From assembly GCA_033065855.1 (NCBI GenBank), contig JAVXUO010000498.1, positions 1-64,000 of the forward strand: a stretch of DNA of 64,000 nucleotides, in the 5' to 3' direction. The notes beneath the pieces are model-generated. The model was not told the DNA's origin. It was given only the letters and a program-made list of their open reading frames with translations, and did not search any database. Every line of letters starts with the position of its first letter. Position 1 is the stretch's first letter. This document shows, piece by piece, positions 1,222 to 64,000 of the stretch. Both the position numbers and the translations under genes were made by a program. Source of the DNA: Escallonia rubra (taxonomy: Eukaryota; Streptophyta; Magnoliopsida; Escalloniales; Escalloniaceae).

Positions 1222-1850
1222 TCTAATTGAACCCCTAATTAAACCCTAAATTGATTGCCCCAATCTAACTGAACCCTAATTGAACCCTAAATTGAATGCC
1301 CTAATCCAACCGAACCCTAAATTGAACTAATTGAACCCTAAATTGAATGCCTCAAATCAACCGAACCCTAAATTGAATCAATAGAACCCCCTAATTGAAC
1401 CCTAAATTGAAGTAATTGAATCCTAAATTGAATGACCTAATTGAATCGAATCCTAAATTAAACTAATTGAACCCCTAATTAAACCCTAAATTGATTGCCC
1501 CAATCTAACCGAACCCTAATTGAACCCCAAATTGAACCCCTTAATCCAACCGAACCCTAAATTGAACTAATTGAACCCTAAATTGAATGCCTCAAATCAA
1601 CCGAACCCTAAATTGAATCAATAGAACCCCCTAATTGAACCCTAAATTGAACTAATTGAATCCTAAATTTAATGCCTCAAATCAACCGAACCCTAAATTG
1701 AATCAATAGAACCCCCTAATTGTACCTAAATTGAAGTAATTGAACCCTAAATTGAATGCCCTAATCGAACCGAACCCTAAATGAAACTAATTGAACCCTA
1801 AATTGAATGCCCTAATACAATCGAACCCTAAATTGAAATAATTCAAGCGC
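1222..1850 (+). repeat. Degenerate tandem array of an ATTGAACCCTAAATTGAA-type unit
   Basis: About 20 irregular units of 18-40 bases share the core GAACCCTAAATTGAA with spacers such as TGCCCTAATCCAACC. Longer blocks are themselves repeated, for example 1322-1400 and 1562-1640. The core contains the plant telomere heptamer CCCTAAA, but the units are never the bare heptamer in tandem, so this is a satellite-like array within the CACTA element rather than telomeric DNA. Confidence 0.8.
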
Positions 1851-2073
1851 ATCGGATATGTGAATTTTGAACATTTTTTTCCCATTTGAACATTGATCAT
1901 TTGTTTGATAATTTTAGGTTGTTAATTGTGCGTTTTAGAATTGTGATTATTGATCGATGATTTTAGGTTATTAGCTGTGCATTTGAAGTAATTGCGATTA
2001 TGAATTGATGATTTTAGGTTGTTAATTGATGATTTTAGATTGTGCATTGAGCATTTGAGATATTGAGATTATT

Positions 2074-2290
2074 GACGGAGGATGGGACCCAATTGGATTG
2101 AATGTGTGATTTTTGTTAATTTTTATTGCATTGAGCATTTGAGATTTGAGAATTGAGATTGTTGACGGAGGATGGGACCCAATTGGATTGAATGTGTGAT
2201 TTTTGTTAATTTTTATTGCATTGAGCATTTGAGAATTGAGAATTGAGATTGTTGACGGAGGATGGGACCCAATTGGATTGAGATACCTGT
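2074..2290 (+). repeat. Three tandem copies of a 90-bp unit
   Basis: The phrase GACGGAGGATGGGACCC starts at 2074, 2164 and 2254, exactly 90 bases apart. The rest of the unit (AATTGGATTGAATGTGTG, then TTTTTGTTAATTTTTATTGC) follows in copies one and two; copy three diverges after GGATTGAG. The open frames across it are by-products of the repeat. Confidence 0.9.
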
Positions 2291-2395
2291 TAGTTAGCGC
2301 AGACACGGACACCACGTCTGATCGACGGTGTCCGACATTTAGAAAACAAATTAACGTATGCCGATGTGTCCGGAGGTGCGTGTCGCTGGGCATCG

Positions 2396-2489
2396 GACAC
2401 GTGTCCGGAGGTGTCGGACACGTGTCCAAAGGCGTCGGACACGTGTCGGTATGTGTCAGACACGTGTCGGTATGTGTCTGACACGTGTC
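2396..2489 (+). repeat. 21-bp periodic array of GACACGTGTC palindromes (five G-box cores)
   Basis: CACGTG cores begin at 2398, 2419, 2440, 2461 and 2482, exactly 21 bases apart, each within GACACGTGTC or GGACACGTGTCC. Weaker related copies flank the array (near 2360-2395 and 2500-2530). CACGTG is the binding core of plant bZIP and bHLH factors; whether anything binds here is inference. Confidence 0.9.
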
Positions 2490-2619
2490 CGGAGGTGTCA
2501 GAAACGTATCGGACACCATATCGACACCCTATATGAGGTGTCGGAATTGAGGTTGTTGAATGTGCATTAAATTTAGGTTAGTTAGGTTAATGCGACATTT
2601 TTAGCATGCACCCCCTGGA

Positions 2620-3645
2620 ATCTAATCGTGGCTCCAGCGCTGGCTATAATTAGCCCTAATTAGTCCTGATTAACAATATTTTAGTAAATCAATTAACCCT
2701 AATTAGCTCTAACGAGCCTAATTAGTTTTAATTAACCCTAAGAACCTGATAAAATTCAAATTAGCTGTAATTACCTCAAATTAGCCCAAATGAACCCAAT
2801 TATGCGCATATTGATTGTAGTTAGCCTAATTAGTCATAATTTGCACTAACATAACCCAATTACGCCTAATTAGCGCTAGTTAGGACTAATCAACACTACT
2901 CGGCACAATTAAACCCTAATTAGGACTAAATAACCCTAATTAGTCCTAATCAACCCTAATTAGCTATAATTATCCGAAACTAGCCCTCATTAACATTAAT
3001 TAGCCCTAACATAACCCAATTAAGCCTAATTAGCCCTAATTAGGACTAATCATCACTACTCGGCACAATTAAACCCTAATTAGGACTACATAACTCTAAT
3101 TAGTCCTAATCAACCCTAGTCAGCTATAATTATCCGAAACTATCCCTCATTAACATTAATTAGCCCTAACATAACCCAATTAAGCCTAATTAGCCCTAAT
3201 TAGGACTAATCATCACTACTCGGCACAATTAAACCCTAATTAGTCATAATCAACCCTAATTAGCTATAATTATCCGAAACTAGCCCTCATTAACATTAAT
3301 TAGCCCTAACATAACCCAATTAAGCCTAATTAGCCCTAATTAGGACTAATCATCACTACTCGGCACAATTAAACCCTAATTAGGACTACATAACTCTAAT
3401 TAGTCCTAATCAACCCTAGTCAGCTATAATCATCCGAAACTATCCCTCATTAACATTAATTAGCCCTAACATAACCCAATTAAGCCTAATTAGCCCTAAT
3501 TAGGACTAATCATCACTACTCGGCACAATTAAACCCTAATTAGTCATAAATAACCCTAATTAGCTATAATTATCCGAAACTAGCCCTCATTAACATTAAT
3601 TAGCCCTAACATAACCCAATTAAGCCTAATTAGCCCTAATCAGCC
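2620..3645 (+). repeat. Higher-order tandem array, ~160-bp unit made of CCTAATTAG-type subrepeats
   Basis: Short subrepeats of TTAGCCCTAATTAGGACTAAT type are organised into a longer unit. The marker CGGCACAATT occurs at 2901, 3061, 3221, 3361 and 3521, giving spacings of 160, 160, 140 and 160; the 140 unit lacks one internal ~20-base segment. The left part (2620-2820) is looser and more diverged. It lies inside the CACTA element, upstream of its transposase. Confidence 0.9.
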
Positions 3646-4388: not shown

Positions 4389-6306
4389 ATGTCAGTCGAT
4401 CGAAGTTGGATGAAAAGGAAGAATGCTGAAGATTTTGAGTGTCGCGTTGACGAATTTCTCGACTTCGCTTATGCGCATCCTGCACATGTTGACCTTGATA
4501 AGATAAGGTGCCCGTGCGGTAGATGTGAGTTGTTGCACTGGAGAAAAAGAATTGAAGTAAAATGGCATCTTCGTCGGTACGGTTTTATGGGTGGATACAC
4601 AAGGTGGACGCAGCACGGGGAAACGATAGTATTGTCGTCCAACCTGGCTAGTCAAACTGAAGTTAGGGAGGAGGCACGATATGATTTTCGAGATATGATT
4701 ATGGATGTTGGGCATGCTAATGTTGACTGGGGTAACGACAGGCCACAACCGCCGAACGAGGGGGCTCATCAGTTTTATGAGTTGTTGAGAGCTGCGGAAG
4801 AGCCGCTGTGGGATGGAGCTCCGAAACACACACGGCTGTCTGCGGTTAGTAGGTTATTACAGTTGAAATCAGACCACGGGCTGAGTGAGAAAGGTTTTAA
4901 CGAGTTTGTTACCTTCATCAAAGAAATACTGCCCGAAAGTGAAAAGCTACCGCCGTCGTACTATGACGCGAAGAAGATGATGAGGAAACTTGGGTTGAGC
5001 TACGACCGGATAGATGCGTGCAATAACGATTGTGTATTATTCTGGAAAGAGAATAAGGATTTGTCATTATGTCTAGTGTGATCATTCGAGGTACAAACCG
5101 GACAAAGGGAAGAAGAAAAACATTGCATGGAAGATATTGCGATATTTCCCGGTCACACCACGGCTTCAGAGAATGTACTACTCCTCCAGTACGGCTGAAC
5201 ATATGAGGGCTCACCGTGAGACTCGCAGCAACGATGCCGATGTGCTGACACACCCAGCTGATGGAGAGGCGTGGAAGGAGTTTGACCGCAGGCATCCAGT
5301 CTTTGCTCAGGAAGTTCGGAATGTTAGACTTGGTCTGGCAACCGATGGGTTCAACCCTTTCGGTCAGTCTACCACGCCTTACTCCTGTTGGCCTGTTATT
5401 ATTGTCCCTTACAACCTTCCACCAGGCATGTGCATGAAGAAGCCGTATATGTTCTTGTCGTTGCTTATTCCGGGGCCGAAGAGTCCCGGTAAGGACATAG
5501 ATGTGTATTTAAGGCCGTTGATTGATGAGTTAAAACAATTATGGAATCATGGAGTCGAAACATATGATGCATCCCTTAAACAAAATTTTCAGATGAGGGC
5601 TGCTTTGATGTGGACTATACATGATTTCCCCGCATTGGGAATGACGTGTGGCTGGAGCACACATGGGAAGCTAGCATGCCCTGCTTGTATGGGCGTGAAC
5701 CCCGGTCATACGTTAAAGCACGGCGGAAAGGCCTCGTGGTTCGGATGTCACCGTAAGCTTTTGCCACCGGGCCATCAGTTTCGTAGGCAGAAGGATAAAT
5801 TTGACGGGACAATCGAGCGTGAGGTTGTCACGCTGGACTACCCATCTGGTGAAGAAGTACTCTCACACCTGGAGGCACTTGATACTGACATACCACACGG
5901 TAAGGGTGTGCCAGATCAGAAGATTCCAGGGTTCGGGAAAGAGCACAACTGGAGAAAATTTTGTATCTTCTGGGAGTTAGCCTACTGGAGGACGCTCGTT
6001 ATCCGAAACAACATGGATGTGATGCATATTGAGAAGAACGTTTTTGATAATGTGTTCAACACAGTGATGAATTTCAAGGGCAAATCGAAAGATCACCTTA
6101 AAGCGAGAAGGGATCTACAACAGTTGGGTGTACGCCGTGAATTGCATCCTCGGACAGTCAGTGGGAGGACCATACTTCCGAAAGCACCTTACTGTCTAGA
6201 CAAGAAACAAGTAGAGAAGGTCTGTCAGTGGGAGGACCATACTTCCGGTGAAGTATTTTTTTCAGCGTTAGTAAATGTTAAATTACAGTTTGTTTTATGT
6301 TGTTAA
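4389..6306 (+). pseudogene. CACTA transposase Tnp2, N-terminal and central part (frameshifted, C-terminus missing)
   Basis: The protein that cuts and joins CACTA ends. Residues 1-75 of the first frame match the Transposase-associated domain, with CPCGRC. The frame breaks at about 5077-5081 and continues one base over, where the Transposase_21/Tnp2 core follows with SSSTAEHMR, GWSTHGKLACPACM and NMDVMHIEKNVFDN, all hallmarks of the family. The ATG at 4389 precedes the associated domain as usual. After CLDKKQVEKVCQW the homology stops. A 22-base stretch (CAGTGGGAGG then ACCATACTTCCG) is present twice, at about 6160 and 6225, which marks a probable deletion join. The remaining third of Tnp2, including the usual C-terminal domain, is absent. 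The next exon belongs to a different element protein. Confidence 0.88.
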
Positions 6307-7499: not shown

Positions 7500-7879
7500 A
7501 CTTTTGGCGACGGATTTATTCCGTCGCTAAAATATTCCTTTCAATTAAATATTTAGCGACGGAATATTAAATATTTAGCGACGGAATATTCCGTCGCTAA
7601 ATATTTAATCCGTCGCTAATTGGACGAAAAAGAAAATAAATTAAAATTTTAAAAATATAATTAGCGACGGACATTCCGTCGCTAATGAATAATAAATCCG
7701 TCGGTAAAAATCACATATTTAGCGACCGTTTTAAAAATTCCGTCGCTAAACTTTTAGTGACGGGCTTTTATACGAGGGATTTTTAGCGACGGTGAATCCG
7801 TCGCTAATTCCTTTAGCGACGGATTTTGGGCTTTTAGCGACGGATTTACCCGTCGCTAAAAGTCTGTTTTCTTGTAGTG
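7500..7879 (+). repeat. CACTA 3' subterminal repeats and right terminus
   Basis: At least a dozen direct and inverted copies of TTTAGCGACGG or CCGTCGCTAAA, several paired into palindromes (for example 7583-7615 and 7820-7860), end in CTTGTAGTG at 7871-7879. Such subterminal repeats are the binding sites of the CACTA accessory protein in characterised elements; binding here is inferred. Confidence 0.9.
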
Positions 7880-11935: not shown

Positions 11936-12083
11936 CAGCGGGTCAGGGTTGGGTATGGTATTCACCATAATCCGCCCCACCCCGCCTCGGTATAGTTACC
12001 CTAATACTTTAGTTGATCTTAGCCGTCCTCTAATACTTTTGTTGATCTCAGCCGTCCATCGTATATATATATATATATATATA
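11936..12083. repeat. GC-rich hAT-like scrap, a ~40-bp duplication and a TA microsatellite
   Basis: AAAATCCGCAGCGGGTCAGG and the following GC-rich bases resemble part of the small hAT-type element at 22098. Then TAATACTTTAGTTGATCT with GCCGTCC is present twice (about 12002-12060), followed by (TA)n at 12062-12083, the Helitron target. Confidence 0.4.
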
Positions 12084-12530
12084 CTAGTTGGGAGCACGTG
12101 CGATGCACGTGGGTATTCACGTTAGATATTTAGAAAATGAAATAAGAATTTTGTTACCTACCATGTGAGTTTATCTACGAACATGTGCTCAACTGTGACG
12201 ACGAACGTGAACGCCTTTCTAATGCATAATTCCAGCATTCTCAAGATTTTACAGTTTATGCCATTCTGCAAGTGTTTTTTTTTTCTTTTAAGTTAGGTGC
12301 TCTATATTTCAAAAGAACACAACTTGTAAATAATGGATTGTCTCGTACCTCTTTTCTGGATAGTTTGAAATTTGCCACGCAATAACCAGTTAATGTTTCT
12401 ACTGCATCAAATAGAGTACGGATTGTACTTTATCCTTCATCAACTATGACAATCTTAAGTATGTACTTGGTTCAGCAAACAAGTAATTTAACAAATAATC
12501 TGCATAAGTTTTTTTTTATAGAGCCTAAAT

Positions 12531-16328: not shown

Positions 16329-16331
<3 letters not shown>
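16136..16331 (-). mobile_element. Helitron 5'-terminal fragment
   Basis: Read on the minus strand it begins TCTATACTACCTATAAAAGT at 16331, closely like the 5' tip of the Helitron at 15919. Only about 196 bases are present before the microsatellite at 16133. No 3' hairpin is seen. Confidence 0.55.
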
Positions 16332-16362
<31 letters not shown>

Positions 16363-16364
<2 letters not shown>

Positions 16365-18066
16365 AGCTGATCCGTTGAGAGCGCTAGCAAAATAGGAGAT
16401 CTTGCAAACGCGATCTGACCGTCCATCCTGAAAAATGGACAGCCCAGATCGTGCCTTTTTCGAATACTGTCAATCGTCCGCGACACTATGTCGCGGATTG
16501 ACTTTTTTACCTTTTTGCCCCTCCGCCCCTTCCGCTACAGTGTTTCCCGGATAGCATTCAAGTCCGCTACACTGTATCGCGGAGGTCCAAATCTTTTTTT
16601 TACGTTTTTTTTAAGTACATCCGCTGCATAATGTAGCGGACAATTTTTTGACAAAAATACCCTCTAGCTTCCGTCCGCTACATTATGTAGCGGACAAGTA
16701 GGCAATGCCTTTTTCCCCTTTCTCTCTCATTTCTCACATTATTTGTCTGACATGTTTCTATTTCTCTCTCTCTTCCCTCATCAATGCTCGTGTCTCTTTC
16801 TCTTTCTCATGAATATTCTCTCTCCTTTCTCTTTCTTTCACCACTTTTTATTTTCTCTCTCATCTCACCCCCCTCTCTCTCTATCTTTCGTGTTTATCCT
16901 GCTTCAGTTCACACACAGATTAGAAAGAAAGAGTGTGTCCGGCCACCTACAGCTCCGTCGGACAGAACCCGTTCAAGTCCATCAGCAAGAAGTCGTACTA
17001 TATTTGTTGCCGATCTTGTATTTCTTCCTGTATTTTTGTTTTTGTTTTGGGCAATGCGTTGTTGATTTTTCGTGAGTTGGATTAGGGCTCTTTACTGGGC
17101 TCTTTTTTGGTCAAGTGATGATAAGCACTGAAGAAGGAAGCTGTATCACCAAAAATTCCTTACAAGAAAACCAGAAACTCATATGAACCCACAACCACAA
17201 CAAAAATTAAACTCAAATGAACCCACAACCACCACCATTTGGCCACTGCCACTGAACCCATCGCCACCGCCACTGAACCTTTGCCTCCCCGAACCACCAC
17301 CATTCAAACCTCCACCATCCCAAATCCCTATGCAAGATAAATAACTAATCTAAACAGAGAGAGGTAGAGAGCAGATGAAGAATTAAGTCTCAAATTTTCA
17401 ATTGGGTCTCAAAATTCTAAAAATTTCAATTGGGTCTCAGTTTTACCACCCAAAATGGGGTTGCCACAGCAGGTGGATTGCTTCTTTCCTTTGTCGTCGC
17501 CGGAAGCGGAGCTGCCTTCCTCCGTCGTCGCCGGAAGCGGAGCTGCCTTCCTCTGTCGTTGCGCGCCAAGAGGCTTCTTCTTCCCTTCGATTTTTGGCAT
17601 GGACGAGAGAGAGAGAGTTAGAGAGTTAATTAGAGAAAGAGAAAACGATGATGAGGGAGAGGAGAGAGAAAGGAAAAATGTCAGAACATTAAATAAGGAA
17701 AATGAGAGAGAAAGAGGAAAAAGTCAGAAGATACGTCCGCTACATAATGTAGCGGACGGAAGCTAGAGGGTATTTTTGTCAAAAAATCCTTCGCTACATT
17801 ATGTAGCGGACGTACTTAAAAAAAACGTAAAAAAAAGATTTGGACCTCCGCGATACAGTGTAGCGGACTTGAATGCTGTCCGGGAAACAATGTAGCGGAA
17901 GGGGCGGAGGGGCAAAAAGGTAAAAAAGTCCATCCGCGACATAGTGCCGCGGACGACTGACAGTATTCGAAAAAGGCACGATCTGGGCCGTCCATCTTTC
18001 AGGATGGATGACCAGATCGCGTTTGCAAGATCTCCTATTTTGCTAGCGCTCTCAACGGATCAGCTC

Positions 18067-18067
<1 letters not shown>
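16363..18067. mobile_element. Long-inverted-repeat element E1, set between TA microsatellites
   Basis: The tips are GGAGCTGATCCGTTGAGAG (16363) and its inverse CTCTCAACGGATCAGCTCC (ending 18067). The inverted repeat is about 350 bases long and continues loosely into CT/GA-rich flanks. It contains several short palindromes of the form GTCCGCTACAT then ATGTAGCGGAC. (TA)n tracts lie directly outside both tips, so the target duplication cannot be read. The core (16720-17730) has CT-rich tracts, a Pro/Ala-coding-like stretch and a 30-base duplication near 17490-17560; no transposase is recognisable. It is probably a non-autonomous long-TIR element; superfamily unknown, Mutator-like possible. Confidence 0.85.
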
Positions 18068-18100
<33 letters not shown>

Positions 18101-18102
<2 letters not shown>

Positions 18103-19777
18103 AGTTGATCCCTTGACAGCGCTGGCAAAATATGACATTTTGCCAGCGCGATCTGGCCATCCATCCTGAAAGATAGACGGCCCAGATCGCGCCTTTTTCG
18201 AATACTGTCAGTCGTCCGCGACATAGTGTCGCAGACGAACTTTTTTACCTTTTTGCCCATCCGCTATACTATATCGCGGACGGTCCAAATCTTTTTTTTA
18301 CGTTTTTTTTAAGTACGTCGCTACATAATGTAGCGGACGTTTTTTTGACAATAATATCCTCATGTTCCATCCGCTACATTATGTAGCGGACGAGTAGACA
18401 GACACTCCTTTTTTTTCTCTTTCTTTGTCCTTTCTCTCATTGTCCTTATGACACCTCTCTCTCTTTTTTCTCACTGTCCTTTCTCTTTCTCTCCCCCCTC
18501 TCTCTCTCTCTCTTTCGTTTCTCTCACTGTCCTCATTTTCCTGTTCTTCCTCAACCACAACAACAGAGGATGAAGAAGAAGTGGAGGGTTCAATGAGAGA
18601 CTCTCCTCTCGGCGCAGAAAACCTCTGGATCTGATCTTTCTACCAGATCCGTCGGCTTCCTCGTCGGAGAAGACGAAGATTTGACTGCTCCGGCGCTGCT
18701 CTTCGACGTCTCTTCTGAAAATTTACCTGTTGTTGCGCTGAAAATTTACCTGTTGTTTCAGTCACGTATGTCTGTTCATTACAGACTGGCCATCTCTTGA
18801 ATCTTCTTGAGGAAGGCAGTGGGCACAATCTACAAGAATGCTGTTTGCCCCTGAATTGGTGGTCTTTGATGGCATCATCACTCTGCCAGTGGGGAACCTT
18901 GGCTATTGTTGGGCTGTATGTAAGGATGTTTATTAATGAGAAGTTTGGACGATGATTGGCTTGAGCCTTGATATGAGTATAACAGTTTGGAAGCTATTTC
19001 GTCTGACTAAAGACCACCAATTCAGGGGCTTTTTTTTCATTTTGGTTGTTCTGCTTTGGGACTAGTAATGCTTTCTTTTCATTTTGGCCAGGAAGGACAT
19101 GCGTTCCCCAATTCATGTGTGTAAAGCAAGCTGCTTGCTTCTGTTTTGTCGAGTGAAACTCCGCTTCTTAAGAGCTTCTTTGGACAGACTCACTCCCTTA
19201 CTCGTTGGGTTGGTCTAAGGTTGAAGATCAGTCTATTGCAACTCGAAGACTGACTTCCCTTCCAAGTAGTTAGTGCTGTAGTGAAGTCTTCTCCTGTAAA
19301 AGAAATCATGGTGAGAGAAAAGAGAGAGAAAGTGTCATAAATTGATGAGAGATAGAGAGAGAGAGAGGAAAGAGAGTGTGTCAGAAATTGACGAGAGAAA
19401 TGAGAGAGAGAGAGAGAGAAACATGTCAGAATTTTAATGAGAGAAAGGACAGGAAAAAAAATAGTGGCTGCCTACTCGTCCGCTACATAATGTAGCGGAC
19501 GAAAGCTAGAGGGTATTTTTTGTCAAAAAATCGTCTGCTACATTATGTAGCGGACGTACTTAAAAAACGTTAAAAAAAAGATTTGGACCGTCCGCGATAC
19601 AGTATAGCGGACTGGGCGGAGGGCAAAAAGGTAAAAAGTCCGTCCGCGACACTATTTCGCGGTCGACTGACAGTATTCGAAAAGGCGCGATCTGGGCCGT
19701 CTATCTTTCACGATGGACGGCCAGATTGCGCTGGCAAAATGTCCTATTTTGCCAGCGCTGTCAGTCTGATCAGCTCC
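18101..19777. mobile_element. Long-inverted-repeat element E2, same family as E1
   Basis: The tips are GGAGTTGATCCCTTGACAGC (18101) and GCTGTCAGTCTGATCAGCTCC (ending 19777), with inverted arms of about 300 bases carrying the same palindromes as E1. It lies 33 bases from E1, separated by a pure TA tract, and another TA tract follows at 19778-19800. Its core (18540-19310) differs from the E1 core and looks like mixed genic DNA. One stretch near 19130-19300 resembles organelle-type spacer, unproven. No transposase gene is visible. Confidence 0.85.
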
Positions 19778-19800
19778 CATATATATATATATATATATAT

Positions 19801-27839: not shown

Positions 27840-30800
27840 ATGCACACAAAAGTATTTGTTATGCATATGTCACCTTCCCTGGCATCTCGCTTCTTCGTAA
27901 ATGCAAACAGATTAGGGATGATGCATGAAGTCTGCTTGGCTCATAACTGATCAAACTGTTAACGTCATGGATACTATGAATTCCGAAGTCATTGAATCAC
28001 TGCAAGGGGCATTGGGGATTAAATCATACATTCCGCCATCTGCGGAGCTCCGCGACTTCACTCTGAGATGGCAAAAAAATTGTCGTACAAAAACCCAGTA
28101 TGGTGCACCGAGGAAATTGAATGTCTTGGGAATTCAGGCATATGACGCAACATGTGGACTAGCAATGGCAATTGAGAGGGTTAGAGGCAAAATCCTGCAA
28201 GCCAGAAAACAAAATGTTGGATTGAATTTGACAGACTTGGCAGGCATTGGCGCCTTCTCAAGTGGCACATCACTTCTACGCCAAATGTTAGAGATTAGAT
28301 TTTCAGGTTTAGGTGGTGACTTCCAACTGATGAATGAGAAACAAATATGGAACGCATTCGAGATAGTGAACATGATTTACAAAGGTGACAGAAGGGTTGG
28401 ACATTGGACTACCACAGGTGGATTGACGAAAGAAATTCAGTCTGGAAAGTTACACCCATCTTCCAGCAATGCCCTCGAAGAAATTATCTGGCCAGGAGGG
28501 TGCAAAGCTACTCCAAAAGGTTGGATGATGCCAATGAATGGTGAAAAACTACGCTTTGGCGTGCCTGTGACTGTGGGGTTCCATAACGTCTTGCATGTAT
28601 CACTTAATCATCAAACCAATAAGGTAGAAGTCACTGGGTTTTGTGTAGATGTATTCGGTGCTGCCATTAAAGCCTTGCCTTATGAAGTACCTTATGAATT
28701 CATCCCTTTTGCGACCCCTACGGGAGAGAGTGCAGGAAGTTATACCGATCTCATTAATGAAGTCTTTCTTCAGGTATGCTTGTCTTTCCGTACAAAGTTC
28801 CAAAGTACTGGTACGAGCTCACACATCTATATACCATTATTAAAAAACTTTTCGGATGGTGCATTGTGAATGAACCAGAATTTTGATGCAGCCGTGGGGG
28901 ATATAACGATCACTTCGAATCAAAGTCTTTATGTTGGCTTTCACGGACATTGGTGTCGGAACAGTAGCACCACTTTCCAATAGCATGTGGATCTTCTTAG
29001 AGCCACTTAAAAGAAGTATATGGGTAACAACTGCTTGTTTCTTCATCCTGACAGGCTTTGTCATTTGGGTGGTTGAACATGCAGTAAATGAAAATTTTCA
29101 AGGCTCACCAGCTCAGCAGATTGGAACAGTGCTATGGTTCTCATTTTCGACCCTCGTTTATGCTCATAGTAAGTTCTTTATCTCATCTCACTTGAATCGG
29201 GATGTTTGGCATTTCTAGTTCCACTTGGATGTGCAGATTGAGAAGTTAACAGATCATAAAAACTTTTACTGTGCTGCATTGCAGGACAAAAGTTGCTAAC
29301 TAACCTGTCAAGATTTGTCATAACCATTTGGATGTTCGTAGTGCTTATAATAACTTCCCCCAAATTTGAGTTCACTCATGGCGGTTCAACTGATCAGATT
29401 AGCTTCAGAGGGACTTTCTATCGGTTATCGGCCTGGTCCTTTTTTGCAAGGAATTATTTTTAGGACAAATTACACTTATATCCCCGAGGTTAGAGTATAA
29501 TTACAGACAAGGACAATAGTTTGGACAAATTACACTTGTGTCCATTGACCAAACGGAACCCTAAAAATCCTAACGGTTTTAACAAAATGACTTTATAGCC
29601 CTCAAGTTACAAATCTATTTATTTCAATTTCCATTATCTTAAATTCTCCCTTAAATTCTCTCTCTACACTTCTCTTTCCCACGCCGGCAGCCCCACACCG
29701 GGAGCCCCCTCCCCTCTCCCCACGCCGACAGGCAGCCCCCTCCCTCGCCCCACCGCCGATCGACCCACCCACACCACCACTATATACAAATCAAAGCTAG
29801 TCCAACCATAACCCAGCTGTAAAATGCTCCGGATCTAAGGACCCACTGTCAGCAGACCATTTTTTCCGGCGTGCGTGTTTGCAGGTGTATGGTCAACCGC
29901 AGGTTAGCTCGATCTGGTCAGTGACGGGTGGATCTGATTGGTTGGGCCACGATGGGGGCTGCGATGGCAGGGGGAGGTGTGAAATGGGTTGACGAGGGGA
30001 TGGGTGGAGGTGACTGGGGACTGTGACGGGGCTGGGAGGATGGGGGCAGGGGGATGGTGATCGACAGGGTAGGGGCAGCGACGACAGGTTGGAGCAACTG
30101 TAGGGGCGGCGACAGGTTGGTGGGGACGGTAGGGGCGGCGGTGGGGGGGGTGGTGGTCCAAGGATAGGTGCAATTCCATTAATTTATTGAATGGTTTTTG
30201 GTGATGAAATTGAATTGATACTTGGACAATAGTGATGGAATTGAATTGATACTTGGATAATAGTGATGGAATTGAATTGATACTTGGACAATAGTGATAG
30301 AATGAAATTCACAGTGAATTTCAGATTCTAGGGTTTTGGAACCCTAATTTTCAAATTAGGGTTTTGAAACCCTAATGCAATAAAAGGCAGTATTGCCATT
30401 TTGAAAATACATAACGATGACATCATAAAAAAAATACACTTTTTGGACGGAACCCTAACGGATGGACACAAGTGTTACAAAATTAGGATTTTTTGGTTAC
30501 GAATGTTATATTTTGAAACTCAGTGTCCTTGAGTATAATTACACCCTAACCTCAAGGATATAAGTGTAATTTGCCCTTATTTCTAACAACTCAAAATTTT
30601 TGGACAACAGGCTTCATCCACATGCTTCTGCTCAAGACTAAGCTGGTGCTTTATCGAGATGAAGTAAACATGGTGGTGTTGATGCTATTATTGATGAAAT
30701 CCCTTGCGTGAAGGCATTCCTCTCTAATTATTCTGGCTATGCTATGATTGATTCTAAACCAACTAGTAATGGCTTTACTTTTGTGAGTATTATTTTTCCC

Positions 30801-54004: not shown

Positions 54005-55587
54005 ATGTCGGAGAACAGGAGGCGGGTCACGGTGCACTCGAAGCTGACATGGGTATCCAGCAAGCCGCTCGGGGGTAAGCCCCACGAGCTCTCAGCACTG
54101 GACCATGCCATGGCCCTGCACACGGTTCACGTCATCTTTTATTACCGGGCCAACCCGTTTGAGCGCGGCCTGTTTGACTCGGACTTCTCGCTGTCGGATC
54201 TCTTGTGCATGTACCCGCCGGTTATGGGTCGGTTGGCCCGAGGGGATGGCGGTAACTGGGTGGTGAGGTGCAATGACGCTGGGGTTCGGACGCTGAGGGC
54301 TAGCGTGGGGACCACGCTAGATGAATGGCTGAGATCGGCTGATGTGTCTGAAGAGCGTGATCTTACGGTCTGGGAGGATATGCCCGATGATCCTAGTATA
54401 TGGTCACCATTTCGTATCCAGGTACATTTTTCTTTCTTTTTTTAGTGTTTTTTGATTGAAAAAAAAAAACAAGTATCAACTTTTGGTCTATCACAACTAG
54501 GGGTCAATCTGGTGTTGGCGAGAACTTACAAGCTTGAACTAGTTGACACTAACAATAAGCATATACATGAATCACTTGACCCTAAGGGTCTGCTAAAAAA
54601 CTATTTGGGTTTTCAGTTTTTTTTTTCCAATTTTATAAACGGGTGAAAAAAAATGCGTTTTTTTTTCCTTCAGTTTTTAAAACAAGATTGTTTTTGAAAA
54701 CTCTCATTTTGGACTTTTGGGTTTTTATTTTGAGACCACCACCACCACCACCCCCCGTCGGCCGCCGCCGGCCACCGTCACGCCTCACCACCGCCACCGC
54801 AACCACAAGAAAATTTTCAAAATAAAAAACTGGGTAATCAAACACCTAAAAGAAAAAACTCAAAATAAAAACTGGGAATCAAACACTCATTTGTTTTTGT
54901 AAAAATAAAAATTAAACTGATTTTGATTTTTGTTTTCTTGGAAACAGAAAACTAAAACTGTAAATGATTTCAAATGCTACCTAAGTTTATAGATGTTAGT
55001 TGCTTTAAACTCTATTCCGAGGGAACCGCCAACCTGGTCCTACTTCTTAATGACGTGTGGATTTGAACACGACAAATTAACTAGAGATTACATATTAATA
55101 TCCAGGCAAATCAGTGACAATTAAAAACTAATACAAGATGAAATGCTGAGATTGAGTAGTAAAATGGTTGGATCGTGCGATCTCCACGCAAGGTTACTCC
55201 CAAAGAAGAAGTTCTGCCGGCTTCTTTCATCATGAAAAGTGGAAAGCCAAATTTTGTAAAAAATTTTGTTGCTAAACTTTAAACCTATGTACCGACTTCC
55301 TCTGATGTCGGATTGCGTTGATCAAATATCTTTGGACTCATCAGCGTTCATGAGGAAAAAAAAAAGACGGGCTAGAGCCGGACTGGGTTAGGTTGGATTT
55401 GAATTATGGCTAGCTAGATTTGGCTTGGGTCGATCAACCCCGGGATGGGGTGCGCTTTTAAGCTATTACTCTCTTTCATCATATGTTATTTCTATAGGTC
55501 TTTTTACACTTTTCTTATTCTATTATTTCTCTACATTTTATTATTCATCAACCCATTTTCTTTCTTTTGGCTCAATTTCTTTTCCCC

Positions 55588-55620
<33 letters not shown>

Positions 55621-57682
55621 GGGATAGAATGAAAAATTAATAACATATGCTTCATATCCTAAATGAGCGTGAAAGTGAAACCTCATCAAATAATTTGGGA
55701 TAGAGGTTTATATCCATTTTATCTAAACCCTCGGACTAACCCGCCCAACGGGACCCGTTGTCAACCAACACTGCTCAACAACAACTTTGTTAGTGTGGTA
55801 TGCCATTTTGTGCATGTGATTCTCTCCATATAAGACTAGTAATTAATCATTTTTGGGTAGTCGGATTAATATAGTGGACCTACTAAATTTCATCATTTTT
55901 AAGTAGATCACGTGGACCATCCTCGCATTATTTGTTTTGTAAATTTTGCAGCTCAATCGTAGTGACACAAAAACTAGTGATCATGATCTATCTTACATGA
56001 ATTTTTTAAAATGCGTGAAATATACGTATCGGGCACTCGACACTTGGACAAGACTATGAAATTTGTATCGGTCACATCGCATACATCTCATAGGATATGT
56101 CACTAAGAACACTATCTTAACGTGTTTCTTTTCATTTGTTAGAGCTTTGATTTGTTAGAGCTTTGAGATGAAATGAGATTTCAATTAAAACAATTTGCAT
56201 AATAGAAAACATCGTGTCACCTAAGGAATATATAAAAGAAAGTAATATGTAGAAATATTTTGCCGTATTCCCGCGTCTTGGATATTAAAAATTAGACGAA
56301 TCTGACACTTGAGAAAGCATATCCGACTCGGATATTTGTACCGAGTTCATGTAACATAGATTATGATGTCTAAGAAGCCATTGACGCATACGTGATGCAC
56401 TAAATGATCTTAGCTTCTAAAGTGAAAAAATACGTTGTGGAGTTAATTCTTGAATACTAGAGATTTTAGCATACGAAATGCCCAAAATTTGATGCTTACG
56501 AAGTTGTTTTCGAGTCTTCAAATTTATGACGTTGTCTCACCACGAAAAAAAGCTTTTAAAAAGCTTCCTCTCCTATGTTTGTACACGTCTTGTTACATGG
56601 CTACACCTTTTGAGTCTGTTTTGTGATACTAGATTGACCTAGTCTGTTTTATGATACAAAATCCACTTTAATGTACAATCTGTATGGAAGATTAAAATTC
56701 AATGGAGGACATTTTTAATACTAATAACAAAATGTCCTTGATTTTGCAGTTAAATGAGTTTGAAGGAGGTGGCCTGGCAATCGGATTGAGCTGCCCTCAC
56801 ATGCTTGCAGACCCAACTTGCGCAACCCTATTTTTCAAGTCGTGGACCGAGACCAACCGGGGTGAACCTGTTCGTCACCCTCCTATCTATCATTTGCCAG
56901 CACTCAATAGCTCGGGCATCAACTTAACAAAGTACCTTGGAACGAAGTCCAAATCGGCAGAAATTCCATCCGGGAAAATGGCCGCTGCTACCTTCAGGCT
57001 TTCTCACTCAATTATCAAGCAATGCCTTGCTCAAATTCATGAAAAGTGCCCAGATGCCACCCCATTTGACTTGCTAGCTGCACTGTTTTGGGTACGAATT
57101 ATGCGATTGAAGATGCCAAGACATGATCAGAAACACTCCCTTTCAATTTGTGTAGACGTTAGAAAACCAATTCATGGGCCAATTCCTTATGGATACTTTG
57201 GAAATGCTTTACATTTCTCACTACTATCAATGGATGCTGAGCTACTGGACACTGCCGGGCTGGGACACGTAGCAGGGGCGGTGCATCGCCATGTGGCTGA
57301 TTTGCATGAAAAAGAGCTTTTGTCAGCTAAGAACTGGTTTGAATCGCGCAAGGGTGAGAACGGACAGTATGCACAACCCTTCAGGATGTATGGTCCTGAA
57401 CTGACATGCATTAGCATGGAACACATGATCACCCCAAAAGGAAGCACTTGTGAATCGTCCATGTATGAAGCAGCATTTGAGAAGGGTGAGAAACCTGTGC
57501 ACGTGGCCTATCGTGTCGGAAATGTAGAAGGTGAAGGGTTGATCACGGTGATGCCTTCTCCGGAGGCGGGGCTCGCACGAACAGTGACGGTAACGCTACC
57601 GGAGGAACAGCTTGCTGAGCTATGCGAAGACCAAGCTATAATGGACTTGCAGCCAACCATGCTCCTCAGCGGGAAAACCTAA
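54005..57682 (+). CDS. BAHD acyltransferase family protein, CER2/CER26-like
   Basis: Two exons, 54005-54421 and 56750-57682, joined by a GT-AG intron (CAG/GTACAT; TTTTGCAG/TTAAAT), give 449 residues, normal for BAHD proteins. Exon 1 carries the N-terminal half of domain one (SALDHAMALHTVHVIFYYR, YPPVMGRLARG). Exon 2 has the HxxxD motif as HMLAD at residues 156-160, the C-terminal YGYFGNAL block near 300 and YRVGNVEGEGLITV. The usual DFGWG loop is not visible, as in CER2-type proteins, which help the fatty acid elongase make chains beyond C28 for cuticular wax in the ER. The reading frame is clean across both exons. The ATG is the first in frame and sits in AAAAATGTCG. I am sure of the family and less sure of the CER2-like branch; another acyl-CoA-dependent BAHD role is possible. 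Confidence 0.9.
54586..54981. mobile_element. Tourist-like MITE in the BAHD intron
   Basis: The left tip is GGGTCTGCTAAAAAACT and the right tip, inverted, is GGTAGCATTTGAAATCA. TAA stands on both sides (54583-54585 and 54982-54984), the 3-bp target of PIF/Harbinger MITEs. The core carries CCACC repeats and CCGCCGGCCACCG, like the copies at 47320 and 53366. It makes up about a sixth of the 2.3-kb intron. Confidence 0.75.
54982..56749 (+). other. Rest of the BAHD intron
   Basis: AT-rich, with a CT microsatellite at about 55588-55620 and a GTTAGAGCTTTGA phrase present twice near 56140-56165. It ends in the acceptor TTTTGCAG at 56742-56749. No other gene seen. Confidence 0.6.
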
Positions 57683-59457: not shown

Positions 59458-60655
59458 GGGAATAACGAATATATTGCTAGTCTTAGACAAGTTGCTTAAG
59501 GCTAGTGAATTAAACTACGTAATTTTGAATGAAATCACCTAATATTTCTTTTATGTATTTTCTTTCTCCCATCAATTTACCAAATATATATCTCTCTCTC
59601 ATCAGACTACACTACCATCCATCGCCGCCATTAGCCTCCACATAGTCGTCCACCGCAAAAACACCATTGTCGCCCTTTTTTCTCCCACCACAACACTGAG
59701 TGGTCTTTCAATAATAAATTACTATTACTATTTATCTGATCAGAGAGCTAATTGCCTTTTTAATGTTGTTTGTTTGATTCAGATGCCTTTGAACTTGTTG
59801 GGTCTTGGTGCAGGTATAACCTTTAAACCGCCTTTACCTGAAGTGCTGTTAGCACATAGGTACAAGAAACCACACACACCTCACAACATCGTTTATTTTA
59901 AACTTTACGAGTGATCCATTGGCACTTGAATTCTCAAGTGGAGGATGTGGAGTGGGACTGCTTGGATGGGGATTTGGCACAGCATTTGGTAGTCAGTATC
60001 GAAATTCCAAAAGGAGTCACGTTTGAGGGAACTGATGTACAAACAAAAATTCCAAAAGCTCGCGCATCTCAATAGCTTTTACTTGGGCAAGGTGGGCAAT
60101 AGCTTTTCTAAACAATAACCACTGCCGATGGTAAGTTTGTAATGACAGAGGTGGTGGGTGGTCTGCTGGAAGCGGTGTTGTCCCCGACGAAGAAGGATGG
60201 CCGGCGACAGAGCAGTGGTGGCGAGAGGAGAGAGGGCGGGCAGTGATGGGTCTCGGCCGTTATGTTGCTGGTTCTTTATGGTGTTAATTTGGTGCTGGAA
60301 ATTGAGTGTCGCCGGTGATGGGGCGGCAACGGGTTGAAGATCAGATTTGGGGCTACGAAAGGTCTCACTTGATTAGGGCTTCCATGGTGACGGCGATGAC
60401 GGATGAGAGGACAGATCACGACGGAGGCGGCAGATGGAAGTGGCCGGTATGGAGGCTGGTCAACGACGAGGTTGCCGGCGATGGGGCTATTCTTGGTGTG
60501 TGCAGGTCTGACGAATGAGAGGAAGAAAGAGAATGGTTAACAGGGAGAGAGAAGAAATATTAAAAAAAGAATTATAAAAAATGGCCAAAACGACGTAGTT
60601 TTTGTCGCTAGCCTTAGACAAGTTGCCTAAGGCTAGCAACATATCCGCTTTCCCC
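59458..60655. mobile_element. Inverted-repeat element E4, set between TA tracts
   Basis: The ends are GGGAATAACGAATATATTGC (59458) and, inverted, GGGGAAAGCGGATATGTTGC. Next comes an inner hairpin on each side, CTAGTCTTAGACAAGTTGC with CTTAAGGCTAG at left and its mirror at right. TATATATA lies outside both tips. The core holds protein-like stretches, such as 59781-59820 and about 59910-60000 ([20 protein letters not shown]), that look like pieces of a host gene. No transposase is seen. Confidence 0.7.
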
Positions 60656-60683
60656 ATATATATATATATATATATATATATAT

Positions 60684-60904
60684 GGGTCGTGATCCATTGC
60701 TAGCATTAGCAAGTTGCTAGCGCGATTTGGCCGTCTGCAACATAATGTAGCGGACGATAATTTACCGTCTACTACGTTATTTTGCGGACGGTGAAAAAAA
60801 TTGTTGTTGTGGCGCACGATCTGGCCGTCCATTCTCGCCTGTGGACGGCGAGATCGCGCTAACAACTTGGGTTAAGTTTCTAGCACTAGCAATGGATCAG
60901 CTCC
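60684..60904. mobile_element. Short inverted-repeat element E3 (221 bp), relative of E1 and E2
   Basis: The ends are GGGTCGTGATCCATTGCTAGC and, inverted, GGAGCTGATCCATTGCTAG. It shares with E1 and E2 the GATCTGGCCGTCCAT phrase and a CAACATAATGTAGCGGACG-type palindrome. (TA)n lies on both sides (60656-60683 and from 60905). Confidence 0.8.
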
Positions 60905-60989
60905 ATATATATATATATGAAAAAAATATCTATATTTTGTGAAAAAAATTATTCTAAAAACTTGAGAAAAGGAAAATAAAAAAAAATAC

Positions 60990-62510
60990 CTAATCATCCG
61001 AAAGTATTTCAATGTCCGAGTCACTGTTCCTTCTATCATCAATCGGTTTATCTTGCTCGCGGTATTTTGCATCAAGATAATCCTTCAAACATACACATAA
61101 CTCGAGCGACTTGGGGTTAAGACGACTCCTCCTATCATCCAAAACCCTCCCACTCAAAGAAAAAGCCGACTCTGAAGCAACCGTGGAGGATTGCACCGGC
61201 AGTACATCCCGTGCAATTTGGGATAAAGTTATATACATGTTTTGATTTTGTTTCAAAAAATTTAACAAATTAAAATTAACATGTTCTTGCATTGATAAAG
61301 CAGAATAATGATCAGAATTGGAATATAAACCAATCTCATTAAAATAGGAAAAAGTAGACGAACCTGCCGTATTAGAAGTACCTTCACCTGGTAGTTGTCT
61401 TGCTACTAGATGTTTAAGACCCTTAAGGTATGGCGCATAATACATCTCACCAGTCGATGATGAAGCTCGCCCGCGCACGTCAGTGGAATTTTGATAGATG
61501 TTGACCAGATCCTCAAATGTCTTGCTCACTTTCGCTATGAGTCTGGTTGTGTCCGCTTCTGTGTAGGTCATTAGTCTTGCAATCTCTTGTATCGGCACGT
61601 TCACGCCATGCAACTTTAACCTAGGATCTAAACAAGTAGCCACAGCAAAAATAACAGACAGTTTCTTCCAATATTTATTAAACTTTTTATCCATCTTTTT
61701 TACTATTTCTTGAAAGGGTCCTATATATCTCAATTTTGTTAACATTGTAGCTATCTTAAGAATTTCTATTACAGCGATAGAAGAGGTGGGATAGTACGTA
61801 CCAGACAATAAATTGGTAGACTTGTAAAATACCTCCAAAAATTCAGATAGGTATGTAGCCATCTGCCATTCCATGGGAGTTGGCAAGCCGTCTGGGAACG
61901 AGGTTAGTAGAAAATGCGTATAGACTTCTTTGTATGCCAGAATATGTAAAAGCATTTGGTATGTAGAGTTTCACATATGGACCACATCTGTAAGTGGTCT
62001 CCTGCGAGGCATATTATATTGAACACACAACGCTTTAAATTGTTGTGTTCTAGGACCTGAACTATTAACAAATGCTGCCATACCCCTCATTTTGAGAAGA
62101 ATATCTCCTACATCAGCTAAATCATCTTGAACAATTAAATTAATAATGTGACAAATATGAGGGACAAGAAATAATTCACCATCAAGTACAGGTTGAAGGC
62201 TCTCCTTTAAAGCTGCAACAACAGCTTTATTGTTACTAGCATTATCAAAACTAATACTCATAATCTTATTCTTTAATTTAAACTTGGTACATGCATTAAT
62301 TATAAGAGTAGCAACGTTAATTGCATCATGCGGAAAAGGAAAGAGTTCAAAAATAATGGTTCTCTTATTCATAGTCTAATCAACATTAATTCAATGGGCC
62401 GTCACACAAGCATAACTAACAAAAGTAAACGGAGATTGTCAAATATCAGAAGTAAGACTAACTCTACCGTCAAAATTATCGAAATAATCAATCAAGCGTG
62501 CTTTAACAGC
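60990..62510 (-). pseudogene. hAT transposase, RICESLEEPER/ZBED type, broken
   Basis: Minus-strand frames give, in order, LIDYFDNFDGRVSLTSDI (near 62500-62455), a run with stops, NKRTIIFELFPFPHD, ISFDNASNNKAV, VPHICHIINLIVQDDLADVG and RTQQFKAL; a stop at 61971; then LLHILAYKEVYTHF, YKSTNLLSGTYYPTS, FAVATCLDPRLKLHG (hAT core), SYFNEIGLYS and the dimerisation domain with SSTVASESAFSLSGRVLDD and LELCVCLKDYL. The BED zinc finger and N-terminal third are missing, cut by the Gypsy LTR at 62511. At least four stops or frame changes lie before residue ~60 of this piece. It cannot encode an active transposase. Confidence 0.92.
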
Positions 62511-64000
62511 TGATATAGTTAAAAATACCCCTTTAATCTACGGATAACACGTGGCAGTTATGACACTTAGTCCATGTTGGCTTATTTGGCACTTGCCATA
62601 CCAATCACCAGGCAGATTCCTAAACGGGCTCTAACTCTATCAGCTAAGATTCACACGAGATCCTCTAGGAATGCTAATTAGAACTGGTCAAAGCCCAGTC
62701 CTACTAGGGCTCCTCCTTCTATCACTATATAAAGGGGTCAAGTCCCCTCAGGTAAAAAAAAGAGATCGCACACACATATAAAGTGTGTCTTACTGCTTTT
62801 TCAGAGTTCTACATTATTAGCCATCTTTGAATTAAGCATTGGAGCGTTCCCCCGCCGGAACCCCACCTAGCGGTCACTCCGTGTTCTCTTTTGCAGGCCT
62901 ATTTTCTGGTATGGTTCCCGATCCAGTTTTTGCTGCAACAGATTGGCGCCATCCGTGGGAGCACGACAGGGAACATGGCCAATCATTCTTCTTCTAATGA
63001 CTCTTCACACAGTCATTCCCAAAATCGTCTCGCACAAACTAACAACTCCCATCAACCTGATAGTTTTCATGACCAACGCTCGACCCCTTTGTGCCGCTGT
63101 CTCGCCAGTTCTTCTGAAGATGTATACGTTAACGTAACATCTGCTACTCCTGAATCAGAAACAAGACCTCAGAGAAACCAATCTCCAACGTCTACTCTGA
63201 AGAACGGTGACCTTCGTCATTGCCTGAACTGTTAGCTACTCGGAGCGTTCCCCCGCCGGAACCCCACCCGGCGGTCACTCTGTATTCTTTTTTGCAGGCC
63301 TATTTTCGAGTGTGGTTCCCGATCCAATGTTTAGCTGCAATAGATTGGCGCCATCCATGGGACCACGACAGGGAACATGGCCAATCATTCTTCTTCTAAC
63401 GACTCTTCACACAGTCATTCCCAGAACCGTCACTCACGGACTAACAGCTCTCATCAATCTGGTCGTTCTCATGACCAATGCTCGACCCCTTTGTGCCGCC
63501 GTCACGCCAGTTCTTCTGAAGATGTATACATTAACGCAACATCTGCTAGTCCCCAATGAGAAACAAGACCTCGGAGAAACCGATCTCTAACGTCTACTCT
63601 GAAGAACGGTGACCTTCGTCATCGCCTGAACTGTTAGCTATTCAAAACACCCCATGCCGACCTTATAAAAGAAATCCACAAACTGAAAGATGTCGTGAAC
63701 ACTCTTTAACGAAAGCTCGACGTGGCAGTGGCTCCACCATATACTCATCATTCTCATCTGGACCCAAGCGACCTTCGTCTCCGTCTCACCTCCAGATCAA
63801 GCTACGGCCGCAAATACAGGTCAGCGGCCGATCCGACTTTCAATCCCAAAGAGAAAAGCAAAGAGCACATGACCAGGAGTGGATCATGTTATCGTCGCGA
63901 TCCATCATTCGAAGACAGTACCAACTCCTCTCTTGAACAGGTCGCCAGAGCTGAGACCCCTTAGAGATCTATCCACAGAAAGGGGACGTCTGAGTTTCGT
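62511..64000 (+). mobile_element. Gypsy LTR retrotransposon fossil, 5' end, runs off the window
   Basis: A probable LTR spans 62511-62940 (TGATATAG ... CTGCAACA) with a TATA-type box at about 62724. TTGGCGCCATCCGTGGGA directly follows, the leader typical of Tat/Retand-type plant Gypsy elements. A gag-like start (MANHSSSNDSSHSHSQNR) comes next. A 401-base block that includes the LTR end, this leader and the gag start is present twice in tandem (62841-63241 and 63242-63642). It is broken and the window ends within it. Confidence 0.75.
62841..63642 (+). repeat. 401-bp tandem duplication at the Gypsy 5' end
   Basis: GGAGCGTTCCCCCGCCGGAA starts at 62841 and again at 63242, and the rest of the unit follows in both, including GGCGCCATCC and GACAGGGAACATGGCC. 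The two copies are close in sequence, so the duplication is fairly recent. Confidence 0.92.

Follow-up and report, generated by a model that had tools for sequence, protein, structure and literature searches.

Does a transposon that stands between TA repeats choose them as its target, or do its own ends make them? The question is raised by a window of 64,000 nucleotides from Escallonia rubra (contig JAVXUO010000498.1, positions 1 to 64,000), in which two long elements with inverted-repeat arms, E1 and E2, and a short relative, E3, are bordered by (TA)n tracts. Our results indicate that these three, and probably a fourth element, E4, are very likely non-autonomous Mutator-like elements (MULEs), mobilised by the FAR1-type MULE transposase of long elements elsewhere in the same genome. 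An earlier note on this DNA had left both answers standing. Insertion that selects TA is now favoured by the TA borders of the copies sampled across the genome, by element-free paralogues with short TA runs and by an odd phase in the bases that adjoin the tips, while the identity of those bases speaks against ends that seed TA repeats.

TA borders in the window and across the genome

E1 (16363..18068, 1706 bp) begins with a left arm at 16363..16706 on the plus strand, made up of the tip GGAGCTGATCC and a chain of palindromes, and ends with a right arm at 17730..18068 on the minus strand; over 333 nt the two arms show 95% complementarity. E2 (18100..19778, 1679 bp) has arms that are complementary at 271 of 297 aligned positions, and the short E3 (60684..60904, 221 bp) belongs to the E1 tip family (similarity to E1, E 6e-6). 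All three lie where the earlier note had placed them, with the tips that it gave. Its coordinates were nearly exact; with the outer G/C included, the end of E1 falls at 18068 and E2 covers 18100-19778. It also described E1 and E2 as having similar arms around unrelated cores, and the core of E2 is indeed unlike that of E1, the best core-to-core match (E 0.07) not being significant.

As the note had claimed, all six tips adjoin TA runs, of 14-32 nt. These are found at the E1 left tip (16331..16362), between the E1 right tip and the E2 left tip (a 31-nt tract at 18069..18099 that is counted for both), at the E2 right tip (19779..19800), at the E3 left tip (28 nt, 60656..60683) and at the E3 right tip (60905..60918). 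TA tracts of at least 10 nt make up 0.5% of the window. What the note had overlooked is E4 (59458..60655, 1198 bp), which has a different tip type, with GGGGAAAGCGG at its right end, and whose right tip is joined to the left tip of E3 by the 28-nt TA tract; the window therefore holds two two-element arrays, E1-E2 and E4-E3. The arms of E4 match each other best over about the outer 70 nt. Since its likeness to E3 is limited to a short TTGCTAGC-type module, in which 22 letters agree over 25 alignment columns, E4 is treated as a separate type, possibly related.

To tabulate the flanks of further copies, as the earlier note had proposed, we searched the window's own assembly (566 Mb in 3222 contigs, with the window on contig 68). 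With the first 138 bases of E1 as query, the best 40 of 2771 first-look candidates were scored and gave 46 matches. E1-type tips amounted to 77 matches in 32 regions, or 75 usable ones after removal of one without a flank and one that was spurious. A tip was counted as TA-bordered if a TA run, 8 nt or longer, ended no more than 4 nt from it, and this holds for 73 of the 75; the two exceptions have (GT)n beside (TA)n and an interrupted TA tract. Under a stricter rule, direct contact with TA, the count is 62/77. For E3, the best 40 of 1679 first-look candidates were scored (93 matches including partial ones), and the sample examined comprised 37 of the 39 copies scored besides E3 itself, after exclusion of five second matches on the same loci (42 reduced to 37). 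TA stands at both ends in 34 of these 37 copies, at one end in three and at neither end in none, the other border of the one-sided copies being (CA)n, (GT)n or degenerate TA. A large majority of the matches of both types is thus (TA)n-bordered. Tip-to-tip junctions were found 14 times in the 32 regions, or 13 times without L018, which rests on a spurious tip. The flanks of E3-type copies have 14-mers in common, which resemble neighbouring family elements or (CA)n. The corresponding comparison for E1-type loci was disregarded, because loci with a single tip took in parts of the element itself.

Palindromic arms and a Mutator transposase

The arms were described in the earlier note as chains of short palindromes, and this stands. 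They repeat a half-site near GTCCGCTACAY, and the palindromic 23-mer GTCCGCTACATWATGTAGCGGAC has nine matches in the window at three or fewer mismatches, all of them within E1-E3, compared with none in 100 shuffles; one of the nine is the perfect half-site palindrome GTCCGCTACATTATGTAGCGGAC at 16673..16695. Single-strand folding gives z values of -8.7 for the whole of E3, -7.8 for the E1 left arm and -10.0 for the E2 left arm. Long terminal inverted repeats, which serve as a MULE criterion, are present in 28 long elements, with a best arm match of 70.6-99.2% over 163-355 nt. Searches for the palindrome gave no matches in IMG/VR and none in bacterial and archaeal genome contigs, Rfam gave none in the window or in three MULE stretches, and among the matches listed for the tip and half-site strings in literature text there was no plant-transposon title. 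Homogenisation of an element's own two arms looked strong for E1 and E2 (22 element-specific columns against 3 and 3, and 13 against 1 and 0 for shorter arms), and the idea was dropped since only 8 of 23 elements have an own arm that matches better than all other left arms.

The same half-sites are found around a MULE transposase. A search with the transposase domain (PF10551) gave 3309 candidates, of which 150 were scored, all above the cut-off, and 30 loci were examined. Half-sites lie within 1.5 kb of the transposase at all 20 loci that are at least 89% identical to one locus, M1 (itself included), with 2-10 at each, compared with none of the 10 more distant loci (48-69% identical to M1) and none in the 58,800 bp of the window outside the elements. 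Four loci were extended, namely M1, M2, M3 and one from the distant group. M1 (C2418:123775-132776) is 9.0 kb long, with TA tracts at both ends and a 779-residue frame. Because its arms agree at 97% over 232 nt, M1 is taken as one element; its right tip matches that of E2. M2 starts with TA directly followed by GGGAGCTGATCCCTTGACAGCGCTGGC, and its outer 67 nt agree with E2 at 91% identity; M3 is 83% identical to E1 over the outer 204 nt, at a TA-bordered tip. In 5.4 kb, the distant-group locus showed neither a family tip nor a TA tract of 10 nt, and a single loose match to the half-site. FAR1 and MULE domains were present in all three transposase frames scanned, and SWIM in two of them.

M1 is hence the kind of long copy with a transposase frame that the earlier note had sought in order to set the superfamily of a family it did not recognise. 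Judged from the tips and the half-site palindromes that surround the MULE transposase, the superfamily of the E1-E3 type is Mutator. In M1, an inverted repeat, GGGTGAAGT(TA)nACTTCACCC, is centred on the left TA tract (L071:833-886), and beyond the right TA tract (L071+L075+L115) more family arm sequence follows within about 150 nt, so M1 also seems to sit in an array.

Probable insertion into TA runs and its alternatives

A transposase of this type would bind both arms at their palindromically arranged GTCCGCTACAY half-sites, make a cut staggered by 9 bp in a TA run and paste the element in, so that each end would inherit a copy of the duplicated TATATATAT. The TA tracts would later lengthen through slippage, and later elements may land in the same tract, producing tip-to-tip arrays such as E1-E2 and E4-E3.

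An exact duplication length is unreadable inside TA, and the phase of the bordering bases was used instead. An odd duplication of a TA run puts the same base beside both ends of the element, an even one puts complementary bases there, and slippage by whole TA units leaves the parity unchanged. The sample comprised 67 copies (29 long ones and 38 of E3 type, E3 included), of which the 53 with at least 8 nt of TA on both sides were entered. Where both tips are canonical, the bases are equal in 11/13 long and 12/12 E3-type copies, i.e., parity is odd in 23 of 25. When eroded tip bases are counted, 47/53 fit an odd duplication, the exceptions being L009, L013b, L038, E4, L096 and L098. This erosion rule was framed after the rows had been seen, and the 25 intact-tip copies are therefore the cleaner test. 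MULE target duplications are 8-11 bp long, usually 9 bp.

Empty target sites point the same way. The right flank of E3 is part of a multi-copy hAT transposon; the best 40 of 1140 candidates were scored, and 20 paralogues were examined around the site. Both flanks could be anchored within 120 nt in 18 of the 20, with longest TA runs of 3, 6, 8, nine times 9, 10, 10, 12, 13, 37 and 42 nt. Three of these were removed, L120 with a mis-hit left anchor and a deleted site, and L137 and L138 as inverted rearrangements, which leaves 15 of the 20 hAT paralogues of the E4/E3 site with flanks joined without an element. In twelve of the 15, the flanks meet at a simple TA run of 6-10 nt. In L122 and L134, TA of 9 and 12 nt is accompanied by (GT)n, and the TA run of L129 reaches 37 nt. 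The earlier note had expected shorter TA runs at empty sites in a related genome; they are found, in twelve cases, at paralogues in the same genome that are not independent and represent the single E4/E3 site.

Some paralogues carry long TA at the target site with no family element there, namely L129 (37 nt), the rearranged L137 (42 nt) and L119, where a still longer TA run replaces the left anchor. These are either expansions without insertion or traces of excision. TA runs thus seem to lengthen at some sites. L136 has another family-like element (73% identical to part of E3) at this position, again within a TA tract, which looks like a second hit on the same target. Two other candidates were rejected. 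A 45-bp direct repeat that flanks E4-E3 looked like an odd duplication, and since element-free hAT paralogues also carry it, the repeat is older than the insertion. For the E2 right flank, two paralogues with 10 nt of TA and no element had a mismatched left flank and were not counted as empty sites.

Among the alternatives, the one that survives best is a spread of the family by way of extrachromosomal circles that undergo homologous recombination through TA tracts, a route put forward for SaTar of guayule (PMC5907723). It would account for arrays joined by TA tracts and for borders of (CA)n or (GT)n in place of TA (L024, L094, L102), and the uncorrected phase of all 53 copies, which is near even, is what it would lead one to expect. 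Recombination through TA gives no reason, however, for a fixed odd phase, which 23/25 intact and 47/53 corrected copies fit, and we therefore regard this route as unlikely.

A still less probable explanation is that the element makes its TA tracts, by ends that carry or seed TA, so that the target need not be TA. The occupied E4/E3 site, with TA of 10, 28 and 14 nt compared with 6-10 nt in the 12 simple empty paralogues, agrees with it. However, symmetrical TA-bearing ends predict complementary bordering bases, and the intact-tip copies mostly show identical ones, which disfavours the seeding of TA repeats by the ends. Moreover, a short TA run is already present in the empty paralogues, and the 37-nt run of L129 and the longer run of L119 show that lengthening needs no resident element, unless one has left.

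It is hardly credible that E1-E3 belong, as miniature elements, to another superfamily (Stowaway/Tc1-mariner with a TA duplication, hAT, CACTA or PIF/Harbinger) and are only seemingly TA-bordered. A TA duplication would always put TA beside the tip, and the window does hold hAT and CACTA transposases. However, the tips are GGGAGC...GCTCCC and not the CTCCCT that goes with the TA duplication of Stowaway, nor CACTA or CAGGG. The hAT found here is what E4/E3 inserted into, since it has paralogues without them, and matching arms flank a MULE transposase.

Insertion of MULEs into TA runs thus remains the best explanation, and several points weigh against it. No element has been caught moving, and among the extended loci there is no copy with a transposase and two intact tips: the left tip of M1 is without its outermost bases, the right side of M2 ends in an assembly gap and the far end of M3 was not reached. 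Without tip correction the phase is odd in 13/21 and 19/32 copies, which is not significant. No readable 9-bp duplication was found outside simple repeats among the copies examined, so the 9 bp are deduced from the oddness together with the MULE assignment. Furthermore, when the arms of E1 and E2 are compared, the palindromes are not better conserved than the spacers (0.858-0.877 compared with 0.885-0.903); their role as binding sites, and any selection for it, is accordingly putative. All sampled copies are the best-scoring ones, so the counts may favour young copies, and the empty-site paralogues include near-identical copies and amount to one target site, not 15 targets.

Cores, neighbouring features and known TA-targeting systems

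The 29 long elements (E1, E2 and E4 included) fall into 17 core groups, none of which matches M1-M3 at E 1e-5. The E1 core group has 11 members including E1, and the E2 core has 346 nt at 87% in common with L030 and shorter pieces with three other elements. Twenty-one of the 29 combine a 60-nt pyrimidine-rich stretch inside the left arm with a purine-rich one inside the right arm; elements that share a core group are not independent cases in this count. When 1000 segment pairs were drawn at random from elsewhere in the window, nine fitted the left rule, three the right rule and none both. On the plus strand, the pyrimidine-rich tract is found at the left arm/core junction of E1 (16755..16910) and E2 (18401..18564), and the purine-rich tract at the core/right arm junction of E1 (17596..17735) and E2 (19339..19426).

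Host-gene fragments of the Pack-MULE kind were found in two relatives. A scan of ten long frames in the cores of eight elements, E1, E2 and E4 apart, gave two well above the cut-off, a DYW_deaminase match (E 5e-37) with an E+ motif in L032 (element 581-2597) and LEA_3a (E 3e-18) in L020 (element 531-2556). The ten frames of the E1 and E2 cores have Pfam matches below the curated cut-off only, and the eight frames of the E4 core have none. The E4 core at 59780-60026 looks like exon-intron pieces of a glycine-rich gene (with frames including MPLNLLGLGA), possibly one for a TGD5-type protein, although Pfam and a literature search gave no match. It is tempting to see two simple-repeat rules here, TA outside for insertion with an odd 9-bp stagger, and pyrimidine/purine tracts inside for core exchange and host-gene pickup. 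We offer this tentatively and think it more doubtful than not; if true, the capture of genes by Pack-MULEs would follow a sequence rule where arm and core meet.

Elsewhere in the window, a CACTA-type transposon with Transpos_assoc and tnp2 transposase domains (Transposase_21, E 2e-86) lies at 4389-6306, with a CACTACAAGAAAA end at 7879, and palindromic GACACGTGTCC tandem repeats at 2379-2507 may belong to it. Long arrays of degenerate AACCCTAA-like repeats extend over 1222-3640. At 12062-12125, a (TA)11 tract adjoins CTAG and a hairpin on the minus strand, which we take to resemble a Helitron 3' end; on its other side are GATCTCAGCCGTCC-like repeats, which also lie beside TA runs in L117 and L118. 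The hAT transposase frame that hosts E4-E3 (60990-61955, minus strand; Dimer_Tnp_hAT and hAT-like RNase-H) has many genome copies, and the frame next to it, up to 62372, has no domain match. A 402-bp tandem unit is present in two copies with 89% matches at 62841-63640. Host-type frames comprise an ANF_receptor ligand-binding region like that of plant glutamate receptors (27925-28869) and two Transferase-family (BAHD-like) frames (54005-57682). No tRNA was found in the window.

The earlier note had allowed for a family already catalogued with a known target rule, and this applies to the kind, which is in print for other plants. TAFT of maize and the original Micron work are cited here after later papers (PMC4486113, PMC5907723, PMC8449440, PMC8227079, PMC12550479, PMC5225508). 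A close description is that of MuTAnT in Medicago truncatula, which is Mutator-like, with long modular foldback arms, (TA)n borders and empty sites with fewer TA repeats (PMC4486113), all of which also characterise the present family. For MuTAnT, 9-bp duplications were reported in 14 non-TA copies, along with an outer G run of variable length and a Jittery-like autonomous element of 4.9 kb; 90% of its 218 copies measure 200-300 bp (PMC4486113). In contrast, the long copies of the present family measure 1.2-2.2 kb and have many kinds of core as well as GTCCGCTACAY palindromes, and the MuTAnT tip mask GGGGTTTGCTAGAACA differs from its tips. Gene capture is unmentioned in the MuTAnT text compared (PMC4486113).

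SaTar, described from guayule, rice, sorghum and citrus and including Micron as rSaTar2, consists of non-autonomous MULE-type elements of about 230-1900 bp (PMC5907723). It resembles our family in its microsatellite borders, some of them non-TA, and in non-nested arrays joined by microsatellites. Its authors favour recombination of circles and term three rice families non-Pack-MULE (PMC5907723); in the present family, by contrast, the phase supports insertion by a transposase and two cores hold gene fragments. Ac-mMITE of pineapple shares the (TA)n borders, the non-nested TA-joined clusters and the Mutator assignment, and has 9/10 bp duplications in non-TA copies; it differs in its size of 210-570 bp and in that an autonomous partner was not found there, according to the text compared (PMC8449440). 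By description, Micron and MiM of plant surveys, which are miniature inverted-repeat transposable elements in TA repeats and thought to be Mutator-derived, are also alike (PMC12550479, PMC8227079). Outside plants, Muta1 of Aedes aegypti is a MULE with long terminal inverted repeats, repeated subterminal motifs and a palindromic terminal motif; it is termed type 2 Foldback, and its non-autonomous copies have heterogeneous cores (PMC5225508). It differs in having 8-9 bp duplications and subterminal repeats that are tandem 12-mers, not palindromes, and the words 'microsatellite' and 'TA-rich' are absent from the portion of the text compared (PMC5225508).

A phase test or Pack-MULE-type cores in TA-targeting elements were not found in the parts of the literature compared, which is no proof of their absence. 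In TA-targeting MULEs the TA tract hides the target duplication, and this has hampered their analysis (PMC4486113). The phase of the bordering bases circumvents the hidden duplication and separates insertion by a transposase from recombination and from end-seeded repeats. Here, one genome holds a likely transposase group, a related group that lacks these arms for comparison, empty sites and captured genes, and how a transposon comes to prefer a microsatellite therefore becomes testable. Collectively, TA-targeting MULEs are already known from Micron, TAFT, MuTAnT and SaTar, and the present family, set against these named families by description, is a well-resolved addition to them.

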